From: Ignavibacteriales bacterium
GTDB taxonomy: Bacteria > Bacteroidota > Ignavibacteria > Ignavibacteriales > SURF-24
Reading direction: 5' to 3'
Assembly: GCA_026390815.1 (NCBI GenBank)
Contig: JAPLFH010000029.1
Coordinates: forward strand, 1 to 32,547
DNA: 32,547 nt
A program made the translations under genes and the position numbers. Under the pieces are notes generated by a model that was not told the origin of the DNA, searched no databases, and was given only the letters and a program-made list of their open reading frames with translations. This document shows positions 5 through 24,334 of this stretch, in pieces (position 1 is the stretch's first letter; the number at the start of each line of letters is the position of its first letter).

Positions 5-1383
5 GTTGTCCGGTAAAAATAAATTATAAGTAAGAAATATGACTAAGTTTAATAAAAACGAAGAAATATTAAGAGAATAGAAAATAGAACCTCCGGTTAA
101 CCAAAAAGTAAAAGTTGTTCATCTGTTTTTGTAGTTAAAAAACTCCAATCGGCATCAGGTTTTTCCAGAAACTTAAATAAGTTTATGTATGTCATTAAAT
201 GATATCTAATGACAGAAACCATATTGGAATACGCCCAACTTCGTTTAATTTTTCTTTGTATTACTAACATTATAAGCTGAATAATCAGACTTACCCATAT
301 TTGTATTTCAATTGCATTTTGGCTATCGCCTAAAAAATATTTTAACGGGAAATTCTGTTTTAATCTTTTAAACATTTTCTCTATCTGCCAACGGTTCTTA
401 TATATTTCCGCCACTTTATCGGCTTCTATTTCAAAATTGTTCGTAATAAATTCATATACCTTTTTGTGTGGCTCATGCCAATATGCTATTCTTCTTAATT
501 CTATTGTCTTTTCTTTTTTTTGAACTTTTATTCTTTCATCCTTTATTACCCCAGGATCAATACCATCTTTAATATCAAATTCTGCTATGCTTTCATAGAC
601 AGCATTTTCTTTCTGCCTGGTAATAAAATATATCCCGTCTAATGTCCATTCCGAATATTGAGCATAGTCATTATATCCTTTATCGAAGACTACATAGGAG
701 CCTTTCTTTAATTCCAACTCTCTTAAGAACGTATGATCGTGTGTTGCTGCCGAGCTGAACTTAATTAAGCACGGCACGTCTTCCAGCGCATTTATCATTG
801 TATGCATTTTTATTCCCCCCTTCTTTTTCCCATTCACAGGGTTCCTTCCCGCTCCTTTCAATATATCACTGAACAGGCTTATTGTGGTACTATCTATTAT
901 TTTTAATCCCTCTATTGCCACCGCGCTTTTATTGCTGTCCGATAAAAATCCCTTATACTGCTCATATAGTCTGTTATAGATTTCTCTGAATACTTCGCTC
1001 TTTCTGTTTTTGTTTGCATCTGATATTGTACTGCGGCGTGGAAAGTGTTTCAGCCCTAAATGATTGATTTTCCCTTCGCACGCCAGTATTATGCTTGTTA
1101 TTTCTCTTAGTGAATTGCATCCGCTTAGTATCGTATATATCATGCTTACCAAATGGTCATACGTCTTGAATTTCTTATAATATTTATCACTCTTGTACTT
1201 TTCTGCTGTCCGGTATATTTTTGCCGGCTCTATGTACTTTAGTATTTGACTTATTATTGGTTGTCCGCTGAATTTATTAGTTTTGTTCATGGTTTATTTG
1301 TTTTCTGTTAATTACAAATTTAACCATGGCAAGGGATTTATCCTTTCGATTTTTCCCTTGTCTTTTATTTTTTACCGGACACT
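5..1383 (-). mobile_element. Complete IS4-family insertion sequence
   Basis: The element carries one transposase gene between imperfect terminal inverted repeats. The left end reads GTCCGGTAAAAATAAA at 8-23. The reverse complement of the right end reads GTCCGGTAAAAAATAAA (1364-1380), so the arms agree apart from one extra A. The outer few bases also partly match, so the exact ends are uncertain by a few bases. The window begins only four bases outside the left end, so no target duplication can be established; ACTG occurs on both flanks (2-5 and 1384-1387) but not symmetrically. The element lies about 300 bp upstream of the CHRD gene and does not interrupt a recognisable gene on its right side. 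Confidence 0.85.
97..1290 (-). CDS. IS4-family DDE transposase (DUF4372 N-terminus)
   Basis: This 397-residue protein is the transposase of the surrounding insertion sequence and would catalyse its cut-and-paste movement. The N-terminus (about 1-75) resembles the DUF4372 domain that precedes the catalytic core in many Bacteroidota IS4 elements. The DDE triad is visible as D133 (IIDSTT), D203 (VFDKGY) and E304. E304 lies in a textbook IS4 signature Y297-x2-R300-x3-E304-x6-K311 (YKNRWQIEKMFKRLK). Length is normal for the family, with no frameshift or internal stop, so the enzyme looks active. The start is ATG. The gene runs on the minus strand, away from the CHRD gene. Confidence in family is high; the IS subgroup is not assigned. 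Confidence 0.93.
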   Translation of the reverse strand: MNKTNKFSGQPIISQILKYIEPAKIYRTAEKYKSDKYYKKFKTYDHLVSMIYTILSGCNSLREITSIILACEGKINHLGLKHFPRRSTISDANKNRKSEVFREIYNRLYEQYKGFLSDSNKSAVAIEGLKIIDSTTISLFSDILKGAGRNPVNGKKKGGIKMHTMINALEDVPCLIKFSSAATHDHTFLRELELKKGSYVVFDKGYNDYAQYSEWTLDGIYFITRQKENAVYESIAEFDIKDGIDPGVIKDERIKVQKKEKTIELRRIAYWHEPHKKVYEFITNNFEIEADKVAEIYKNRWQIEKMFKRLKQNFPLKYFLGDSQNAIEIQIWVSLIIQLIMLVIQRKIKRSWAYSNMVSVIRYHLMTYINLFKFLEKPDADWSFLTTKTDEQLLLFG

Positions 1384-1683: not shown

Positions 1684-3516
1684 ATGAAAAATTTACCAAT
1701 CCGAATAGTGTTTTTATTTTTGATAATAATAAGCACATCATTTACAGGAACAGTTGTGGCACAAACTACTCAGTCTTCACAGACAGTCTTCGTATCAACT
1801 ATAAATGCTTTACTGGAAGGTTCATCTGATACTTCCAAAGCTACAGCAACAGCGTGGGCAATTCTATCCGGAGATAAAACCCAACTAACATATAGAATTA
1901 CTTACGCAAAGCTTACTTCAAAATTTACAGCTTCACATTTTCATTTGGGTTTTCCAGGAACAAATGGACCGGTGGTTCATGCAATTCAATATACCAGAAA
2001 TACAGCCATTGGCAGCTGGACAAATTTACCGGATAGCATTGTTACTGCACTAATAAGAGGGCAAATATATATTAATATCCACACGCAAAATTACCCTGGT
2101 GGTGAAATAAGAGGGCAGTTAAAACCGGTCGATGGTATTCCATTTTTGTTTTCGCCGGAACCCGGACAAGTAAATTCTCCAGATACATCAAAAGCATCTG
2201 GAACAGGTTGGGCTGTCTTAAGCTCTGATGGATCAGTTCCATATCTTACTTATGGAATGACGATAGCCGGATTAACCAGCAATTATACTGCCTCGCATTT
2301 TCATATCGGTGTGGCAACTCAAAATGGCGGAGTGGTTCATCCAATTGCATTTAGTGATAGCTCTGCTTATGGACGATGGGATAATATTTCTGATCAAAAT
2401 GTATTAGCACTTTTAAGAGATGGAATTTACGCAAATGTTCATTCAGCAAATTATCCGGGCGGAGAAATACGTGGACAGCTTATTAAATCCGGAACAATTT
2501 CCTTCTATGCTTCACTTGATGGCAACCAGGAAGTTCCGATTGTAACTACAAATGCAACAGGAACAGCATTGTTTGTTTTGAATGATAGTTTGTCATCACT
2601 TGCTTATAGAATTACTTTTGCCAATCTTCAGGATGGTTTTACTGCTTCTCATTTTCATCTGGGTGCATTTGGTGTTCCTGGTGGAGTTGTTAAACCGATT
2701 AATACATTTAAGGGAAATACGGCAGATGGTATTTGGAGTGGAATTCCAGATAGCTTGCTGGTTAGTTTGGTTAAAGGTAATCTCTACGTTAATATTCATT
2801 CCAAAGCGCATGGAGGCGGAGAGATAAGAGGGCAAGTATGGCTGAATGAAGGTATAGCATTTATTGCATCATTAAATAGTGCACAGAGCGGACAATCGGT
2901 TTCATCTTTAGGTTCAGGTACCTCCTGGCTTTCATTGGTTGATGATACATTAAAATTCCAGATAACATTTGCCGGATTAACTTCTGCTTATTCATCTTCG
3001 CATTTTCATCTTGGTGCTACAGGAGTTAATGGAGGAGTTGTTCATCCAATTGCATTTACGGATAGCACAACAAATTCTTTTTGGGCTTCTTTAGATAATT
3101 CTTCTCTTAGCGCATTGGTAAACAAAAATTTATATATAAACATTCATACGGCAAATTATCCGGCTGGTGAAATAAGAGGACAAGTTTTACCATCAACTTT
3201 CGAATCTGCACACAGTGTTACATTCGTTAGTGATGAAAATTCTTCAGTCATATCAAATTATAAATTAAGTCAGAATTACCCGAACCCATTTAATCCATCA
3301 ACTACTATTAATTTTTCAATTCCCCAAAATAGTTTTGTTACAATTAAAGTATATAATAACATTGGTAAGGAAGTAACAACTTTAGTTAATGAACAAAAAC
3401 CAACGGGTAATTATAATGTGGTTTTTAACGGAAATAATCTTGCAAGCGGAGTTTATTTTTATAGAATGATTGCGGATGGAATTGTTTATACAAAAAAATT
3501 AATGCTGCTTAAATGA
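1684..3516 (+). CDS. Secreted protein with four CHRD domains and T9SS sorting domain
   Basis: This 610-residue protein is predicted to be exported and handed to the type IX secretion system. Residues 1-27 are a signal peptide (hydrophobic FLFLIIISTSF, then VVAQ). Four CHRD repeats of about 120 residues follow. Each has a [TS]xSHFH[LI]G motif (at about 83, 203, 321 and 438), a VV[HK] element about ten residues later, and a closing N[IV]H...GEIRGQ motif (ending near 145, 265, 384 and 500). Residues about 526-610 are a typical type A sorting domain: NYPNPFNPSTTINFSI, then NLASGVYFYRM and a basic tail. The role of bacterial CHRD domains is not established; they occur in surface and matrix proteins. 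The gene has a strong AAGGAG site and appears monocistronic. Confidence 0.9.
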   Translation: MKNLPIRIVFLFLIIISTSFTGTVVAQTTQSSQTVFVSTINALLEGSSDTSKATATAWAILSGDKTQLTYRITYAKLTSKFTASHFHLGFPGTNGPVVHAIQYTRNTAIGSWTNLPDSIVTALIRGQIYINIHTQNYPGGEIRGQLKPVDGIPFLFSPEPGQVNSPDTSKASGTGWAVLSSDGSVPYLTYGMTIAGLTSNYTASHFHIGVATQNGGVVHPIAFSDSSAYGRWDNISDQNVLALLRDGIYANVHSANYPGGEIRGQLIKSGTISFYASLDGNQEVPIVTTNATGTALFVLNDSLSSLAYRITFANLQDGFTASHFHLGAFGVPGGVVKPINTFKGNTADGIWSGIPDSLLVSLVKGNLYVNIHSKAHGGGEIRGQVWLNEGIAFIASLNSAQSGQSVSSLGSGTSWLSLVDDTLKFQITFAGLTSAYSSSHFHLGATGVNGGVVHPIAFTDSTTNSFWASLDNSSLSALVNKNLYINIHTANYPAGEIRGQVLPSTFESAHSVTFVSDENSSVISNYKLSQNYPNPFNPSTTINFSIPQNSFVTIKVYNNIGKEVTTLVNEQKPTGNYNVVFNGNNLASGVYFYRMIADGIVYTKKLMLLK

Positions 3517-3534: not shown

Positions 3535-3840
3535 GGATTCCCGCCTGCTTACCAGTAGGCAAGCTTTCGCACATAGGCGTCAACTTAAGGTTAAATATTT
3601 AGTTTATGATGAAAATAGCCCCGACCCTGCTTATCGTAGGCAGGTTTTCAAGTCGGGGAAAGAATATTCTCTAAGAATTTAAGGCTTTAGCTCAACATAA
3701 GAATTGTACTTGCCTACTGCAAGTAGGTTGGACTAAAGTCCAGGATTTTTTGAGGATTCCGATACTCCGGCATAAATGCCCGAGTTATTCAAGTACAAAA
3801 TTTCCTTAAGTTGACGCCTATGTGCTTTCGCAGGAATGAC
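3535..3840. repeat. Dispersed palindromic repeat split by a MITE
   Basis: The outer sequences form one repeat once the inserted element at 3571-3823 and one copy of the 8-bp duplication are removed: GGATTCCCGCCTGCTTACC..., then ...AGTAGGCAAGCTTTCGC, joined to AGGAATGACAT. The same ends occur in an uninterrupted copy at 24268-24334 (GATTCCCACTTTCGTGGGAATGACA). This supports a dispersed GATTCCC...GGAATGAC palindromic family in this genome, of which this copy served as the insertion target. Confidence 0.65.
3571..3823. mobile_element. MITE-like element, 253 bp, perfect 20-bp terminal inverted repeats
   Basis: The left end ACATAGGCGTCAACTTAAGG (3571-3590) is the exact reverse complement of the right end CCTTAAGTTGACGCCTATGT (3804-3823). 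Both sides are flanked by the same 8 bp, GCTTTCGC (3563-3570 and 3824-3831), a target-site duplication. There is no open reading frame of note inside. The interior holds several hairpins: CCCCGAC (3619-3625) with GTCGGGG (3652-3658) enclosing a CCTGC...GCAGG stem (3626-3644); GGCTTTAGCTCAAC with GTTGGACTAAAGTCC (about 3683-3742); and ACTCCGGCAT with ATGCCCGAGT (3764-3785). Size, ends and duplication define a non-autonomous transposable element moved by a transposase elsewhere. Its ends do not match the IS4 element in this window. Confidence 0.82.
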
Positions 3841-24267: not shown

Positions 24268-24334
24268 TGTCATTCCCGTGTAAACGAGAATCCATAATTT
24301 CAAAAAATAGATTCCCACTTTCGTGGGAATGACA
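24268..24334. repeat. Dispersed GATTCCC...GGAATGACA palindromic repeat, intact copy
   Basis: Outer arms TGTCATTCCC (24268-24277) and GGGAATGACA (24325-24334) are perfectly complementary. Inside is a second hairpin, ATTCCCAC (24311-24318) with GTGGGAAT (24323-24330). It lies between dapB and dapH. The same outer sequences flank the MITE at 3535-3840, so at least two copies occur in the window. Confidence 0.8.

Follow-up and report, generated by a model that had tools for sequence, protein, structure and literature searches.

The window, by which we mean the whole 32,547-nucleotide stretch analysed, is an entire contig (C29) of a 4.52 Mb assembly in 59 contigs. The contig starts with an IS4-family element (positions 7–1381, DUF4372 type) whose ends are TGTCCGGTAAAAA. 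Further in, between convergent reading frames, a short non-autonomous element that we call MITE1 lies 55 bp past the stop of a 610-aa ORF (ending at 3516) and approximately 500 bp before the next. The features discussed below are as follows.

3536–3571, no strand: left half of an interrupted dispersed palindrome (GATTCCCG, 20-bp mini-palindrome, CTTTCGCA)
3544–3563, no strand: 20-bp mini-palindrome CCTGCTTACCAGTAGGCAAG in the outer palindrome, absent from intact copies and from the L057 site, present in L059
3563–3571, plus strand: left target duplication GCTTTCGCA, 9 identical bases, the tenth (A3562) mismatched
3572–3822, no strand: MITE1, non-autonomous element with IS231-type ends, 251 bp, 13 matches in the same genome
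3572–3590, plus strand: left terminal inverted repeat CATAGGCGTCAACTTAAGG, its first 17 bases identical at both ends of the ISs L078, L093 and L095
3626–3644, no strand: 19-bp mini-palindrome in MITE1, site 1, absent from the 213-bp copies L010 and L012 and from the relative L107
3709–3727, no strand: 19-bp mini-palindrome in MITE1, site 2, absent from L010, L012 and L107
3804–3822, minus strand: right terminal inverted repeat, exact reverse complement of the left
3824–3832, plus strand: right target duplication GCTTTCGCA, 9 identical bases, the tenth (T3823) mismatched
3824–3839, no strand: right half of the interrupted dispersed palindrome, GCTTTCGCAGGAATGA
24268–24334, no strand: inverted hairpin pair, a REPIN-like doublet of the outer-palindrome class (GTCATTCCC hairpins)

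The ends of MITE1, CATAGG...CCTATG, were set by comparison with its other copies and with full-length ISs. The MITE recognised in an earlier note is indeed present, at 251 bp and not 253 bp. The 20-bp perfect terminal inverted repeats described there are also found, and by direct reading and a repeat search the arms (3569–3590 and 3804–3825) are complementary at 22 of 22 positions, the neighbouring GC dinucleotides included. As that note held, the interior has no plausible gene: an ORF check within the element gave nothing longer than 49 aa and nothing gene-like. Single-strand folding of MITE1 is far stronger than that of shuffled controls (z = -9.9), and a known RNA was rejected as the content of the interior as a comparison with Rfam gave no match up to E = 1. 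Hairpin clusters resembling the interior, without IS231 ends, occur in other genomes (L111, L112). When the interior hairpins were compared with approximately 380 kb of the same genome and with the surroundings of Y1 genes, there was some resemblance, with identity limited to short cores. As a lead, the interior may have been captured from REP-like arrays.

Copies and target duplications

A DNA search of the same genome returned 13 MITE1 matches, of which eight are nearly full-length (92–100% identity), two are of 213–215 bp and three are truncated (two at contig ends); a fourteenth is a partial match of 30 bases. The end sequence, used as a pattern, occurs in this genome at 35 places with no more than three mismatches, against 4 for the reversed control, and the extra ends mostly belong to a second family, MITE2 (284–355 bp), which shares the ends of MITE1 but not its interior. 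The search for genomic copies of the 20-bp end and their flanks that the earlier note had recommended is thus answered by many copies, the 13 MITE1 matches together with the MITE2 family. At four places MITE1 lies within the MITE2 palindrome: L045 (2272–2716), L046 (2433–2870), L053 and L055. Because the whole composite at L045 is flanked by TGCGGTAGGCA and TGCAGTAGGCA, a near-perfect 11-bp duplication, we suggest that it moved as a single unit by way of the MITE1 left end and the MITE2 right end.

Many contigs of the relatives G044 and G010 end approximately 50–130 bp past one terminal repeat (L144–L150, L153, L156, L158, L160), a pattern suggestive of multicopy elements that did not assemble and that may be the autonomous IS.

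Elsewhere in the same genome, elements with CATAGG...CCTATG ends are flanked by the duplications TGCGTTAGGCA, TGCCTACCGCA, GTATATAGCA, TGCTTTCGCA and TGCCTGCGGTA. When related genomes are included, 33 of the 66 candidate two-ended elements have a clear duplication, defined as 9–12 bp with at most one mismatch; the mode is 11 bp, with 28 of the 33 at 10–12 bp and five at 9 bp, and random re-pairing of left and right flanks yields a duplication in 1.8% of cases; together with the 13 genomic matches, this speaks against chance. The half of the 66 with no clear duplication counts against our reading, and may reflect age, recombination or mis-paired ends. As the duplication is at least 9 bp in the window and 9–12 bp in the family, the 8 bp given in the earlier note was an undercount. 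IS66, IS256, ISL3 and IS1595 are families with an 8-bp duplication; they were considered as the source and rejected, as the full-length relatives described below are IS4 elements with 10–11 bp.

The flanks also bear on whether the copies spread mainly as passengers of recombining or copied repeat clusters, palindrome and MITE together, rather than by transposition. At some sites, for example L116, L131 and L132 in G052, the flanks are common beyond the duplication, as would be expected of such passengers. However, the copies in the genome of the window lie in different sequences, each with a duplication of its own (TGCGTTAGGCA, TGCCTACCGCA, GTATATAGCA and others), which is the mark of independent insertion and makes passive spread as the main route hardly credible.

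Autonomous elements with the same ends in relatives

Among relatives, the MITE end has matches in 18 of 59 genomes. One pair of ends, 1.47 kb apart, encloses a 460-aa transposase; this IS (L078) is on contig WPAE01000084.1 of an Ignavibacteria MAG. When 164 genomes of the order were searched with the transposase protein, 12 had matches, including full-length relatives at 43–52% identity. Three full-length ISs of 1427–1473 bp in the same order, L078, L093 and L095, have the 17-bp end CATAGGCGTCAACTTAA on both sides, and the same end is present on one side in L094 and adjoins the fragments L097, L100, L101, L104 and L106 and a decayed copy in G013.

The transposase of these autonomous ISs belongs to the IS4 family, scoring 182 bits with NF033592 against a cut-off of 115. 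The family was recognised by a single ORF, the YREK signature Y(2)R(3)E(6)K and a D(60-110)D(100-150)E spacing; in transposase P0001, YREK is at 328–342 and the invariant D127, D206 and E335 are spaced by 79 and 129, as in that family. The IS231 subgroup is defined by the ends CAT-------AA--TAA--- and a 10–12-bp duplication (De Palmenaer and colleagues, PMC2266710). CATAGGCGTCAACTTAA carries this end signature on both sides of L078, L093 and L095, and fits the looser ISH8 signature CAT-----------T too; the duplications are TACCGCAGGCA (11 bp) at L078 and CGACAAGTCG (10 bp) at L093, both within the IS231 range. Lengths of 1473 and 1458 bp lie within the IS231 size range of 1450–5400 bp, L095 being slightly short at 1427 bp. 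In a transposase tree these proteins form a clade separate from Bacillaceae relatives (whose ends are, for example, CATACCCATCAAGCTAACGC, with a duplication TGTCTGTACCC); the tree, with poorly supported deep forks and no labelled ISH8 reference in it, neither confirms nor excludes IS231.

MITE1 has only its termini (approximately 17–24 bp) in common with the ISs, the interiors being unrelated, and we therefore rejected the possibility that it is an internal deletion of the ISs found. The IS4 element of the window (97–1290, DUF4372 type) was rejected as mobiliser since its ends, TGTCCGGTAAAAA, are unrelated to those of the MITE. The earlier note had seen as much and had placed the mobilising transposase elsewhere, which agrees with the presence of the likely mobiliser, a member of a different IS4 subgroup, in relatives and with its absence from this assembly. 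A full-length IS with the same ends, which that note advised looking for, does exist in relatives, but with a duplication of 10–11 bp instead of 8 bp.

Searches of the 59-contig draft assembly with the single protein and with a four-member profile did not find the transposase, while the profile gave E = 1e-229 or better in the positive controls G045 and G106, the genomes from which two of the profile rows came. Because neither search gave a match while the controls worked, the MITEs of this genome are orphans, at least in this assembly. A draft in 59 contigs could hide a transposase copy, and it is relatives in other families of the order that point to the mobiliser. The IS231-type IS of these related genomes is, from the ends it shares with MITE1, its likely mobiliser.

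Palindromic targets and nested small palindromes

The 33 elements with clear duplications, among them the autonomous L078 and L093 as well as MITEs, give the palindromic target consensus TCC|(C/T)G-N-C(G/A)|GGA, with CC directly to the left and GG directly to the right of the duplication in 26 of 33. At eight symmetric positions the mean number of complementary pairs is 5.4, compared with 2.2 at random sites in the genome of the window, and at least six pairs are present in 14 of the 33 targets (0.8% expected); the effect is large, and the formal p of 5e-21 overstates the evidence because some target sites are copies of one repeat. The target preference for palindromes is real. In the genome of the window the palindromes struck are of two main sorts, GATTCC...GGAATGAC and CCTGC...GCAGG. 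The GATTCC...GGAATGAC repeat holds the window copy and the MITE2 copies L057 and L059, and most of the remaining copies are in other palindromes; the earlier note's proposal of a target preference, with insertion sites in the GATTCCC repeat, is upheld by these insertions.

It might be argued that the preference is no property of the transposase, and that insertion is near-random with only the intergenic copies surviving, where palindromes are common. None of 14 sites tested in the genome of the window splits an ORF of at least 90 aa, as this would predict. However, the consensus holds down to single bases and has its axis of symmetry in the duplication (26 of 33 sites have CC|...|GG). The genome also has few strict palindromes, with only 9 strict pattern matches of the GATTCC type without an element and approximately 14 CTGCYT..ARGCAG palindromes outside MITE1; survival alone is therefore insufficient, and we consider this account very improbable. 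The same 14 sites fit the statement in the earlier note that landing in repeats avoids genes, although avoidance as the cause we only infer, because the target motif is intergenic anyway. That the target is symmetric explains why the MITEs lie in repeated intergenic palindromes and in each other.

The outer palindrome is found intact elsewhere in the genome, for example as ATTCCTGCTTTCGCAGGAATGAC at C7:3502–3524. The earlier note had the outer repeat become continuous on removal of the insert; a palindrome is indeed interrupted here, but it also carries the 20-bp palindrome at 3544–3563, which is absent from intact copies, and the site is therefore nested one level deeper than described. The pair at 24268–24334, which had been called an intact relative, is of the same general class but not of the same sequence; a second REPIN-like inverted pair of GTCATTCCC hairpins is at C7:3461–3524 (L169:3461–3524).

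We consider it highly probable that MITE1 was moved into palindromic targets by an IS231-type transposase from an autonomous IS that is absent here and present in relatives. In this model the IS, missing from the assembly, would have supplied the transposase in the past; the transposase would bind the CATAGGCGTCAACTTAA ends and excise the MITE, which would be pasted into TCC|(C/T)G-N5..8-C(G/A)|GGA palindromes by staggered cuts that leave a 9–12-bp duplication. The window copy would have struck a repeated intergenic palindrome that already carried the 20-bp mini-palindrome. Mobilisation in trans by that transposase, in the style of MIC231, is what the shared ends, the duplication length and the target consensus point to, and we infer a former presence of the IS in this lineage and an outer mini-palindrome older than the MITE insertion; cut-and-paste chemistry is presumed by analogy with IS231A. 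With the exception of the duplication length, the observation made earlier is thus confirmed, and its interpretation supported, in all main points.

The small palindromes themselves are present in some copies and absent from others. Precisely two 19-bp palindromes of the other copies, CCTGCTTACCGTAGGCAGG and CTTGCCTACTGCAAGTAGG, are missing from L010 and L012, the copies of 213 bp, and a MITE1 relative from another family of the order (L107, in G041), itself within a palindrome, lacks both as well (CCCCGACTTTTTAAGTCGGGG), because of which the state without them is most simply taken as ancestral. In MITE2, CTTGCCTGCTGCAAGCAGG occupies as many as two sites; relatives in two other genomes, L151 and L167, are empty at the first of these, and L151 at the second too. 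On C15, each of two terminator-like hairpins contains one mini-palindrome, further inserts are seen in hairpins at L056:1044 and 1547, and at L051:1922–1978 three 19-bp palindromes CCTGCCTGCAGTAGGCAAG are in direct tandem inside a GTCATTCCC hairpin. No target duplication is evident at the mini-palindrome inserts. Following removal of the 19–20 bp, 5 of 25 sites (some of the 25 being copies of each other) form a stem that exceeds the 99th percentile for random sites; hairpin stems are over-represented at these sites, and not every site fits. In an order-wide count, CTGCYT..ARGCAG palindromes exceed the control in most genomes, a result that has chance-like sequences mixed in and lends the mini-palindrome weak support. 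A literature search on its sequence found nothing relevant.

We take the mini-palindromes to be a very small mobile palindrome that has inserted at these places, while lineage-specific loss or an origin through replication may also account for them. Loss from the shorter copies by hairpin deletion during replication, rather than insertion into the longer ones, would sit well with the fact that L010 does not otherwise differ from the consensus of the long MITE1 copies, and palindromes are, as is generally known, prone to deletion. We nevertheless think it rather unlikely, as relatives from other families are empty at the same positions (L107; L151 and L167), the difference in length is exact and leaves an unbroken hairpin, and 19–20-bp palindromes related to these are found in unrelated places. 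Insertion is the reading we follow, and we suggest, tentatively and as somewhat less likely than not, that a palindrome of approximately CYTGCYTRCNGYARGCARG could be a precise mobile unit, which would insert without visible duplication, often beside hairpin loops, and then serve as a landing pad for IS231-type MITEs, with intergenic DNA growing by nesting. The proposed sites are two in MITE1, two in MITE2, the outer GATTCC...GGAATGAC palindrome and the terminator-like hairpins. If true, the mobile palindrome would rank with the smallest mobile sequences known, and be one without a known enzyme. Because their empty sites are seen in other species, the 19-bp insertions offer a concrete handle on the growth and spread of bacterial palindromic repeats, a process that is poorly understood.

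Comparison with known systems

MITE1 is short, has inverted ends and a target duplication, is multicopy and contains no transposase gene, as do MITEs and mobile insertion cassettes, and on its sequence features it is a MITE with ends of the IS231 subgroup of the IS4 family, MIC231-like and of a known kind, with an unusual nesting. MIC231 cassettes have no transposase of their own and depend on that of IS231A, which mobilises them in trans (PMC3913671). IS231 and MIC231, which are mainly from the Bacillus cereus group, have the same CAT-------AA--TAA ends, a YREK transposase and a 10–12-bp duplication. Here, however, the host is an order of Ignavibacteria and not Bacillus, transposase identity to Bacillaceae relatives is approximately 24%, and the target has CC and GG as arms on either side of a palindrome; unlike MIC231A1, which carries a peptidase gene, MITE1 is only 251 bp and gene-free. 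IS231-type elements and their non-autonomous derivatives are thereby extended far outside the Bacillus cereus group, by a chain that is nearly complete and consists of the MITE, the autonomous IS in relatives, the duplications and a base-level target consensus.

Insertion specificity has been reported for IS231A (PMC2266710), and ISRm22, an IS4-family element of Sinorhizobium meliloti, inserts on the axis of REP palindromes with a 6-bp duplication (PMC1525189); the target behaviour seen here is therefore of a known sort. ISRm22, which is assigned to subgroup IS4Sa (PMC2266710), and other REP-targeting ISs resemble our elements in that IS4-family insertion is on repeated extragenic palindromes, but the repeats struck here are several unrelated sequences with only the symmetric consensus in common.

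There is also a likeness to REPINs and the REP-RAYT system (PMC3116915), in that the outer palindrome occurs as an inverted pair and the genome has six Y1-type (RAYT-like) transposase genes (L203–L208, on C5, C40, C33, C52, C32 and C7). At least four of the six Y1 loci are flanked by a hairpin class of their own, for example GTCCC..GGGAC or CGGCTTTAGCC. The GATTCC...GGAATGAC palindrome, which has few copies, is beside the Y1 gene at none of the six loci, and by this it departs from a REPIN. Finally, the mini-palindromes recall the small dispersed repeats of cyanobacteria, which reportedly are mobile and lie within other repeats (Elhai et al. 2008, cited in PMC3116915). The likeness is in mobile sequences of approximately 20 bp within repeats, whereas here the unit is a 19–20-bp near-palindrome that is often beside hairpin loops.
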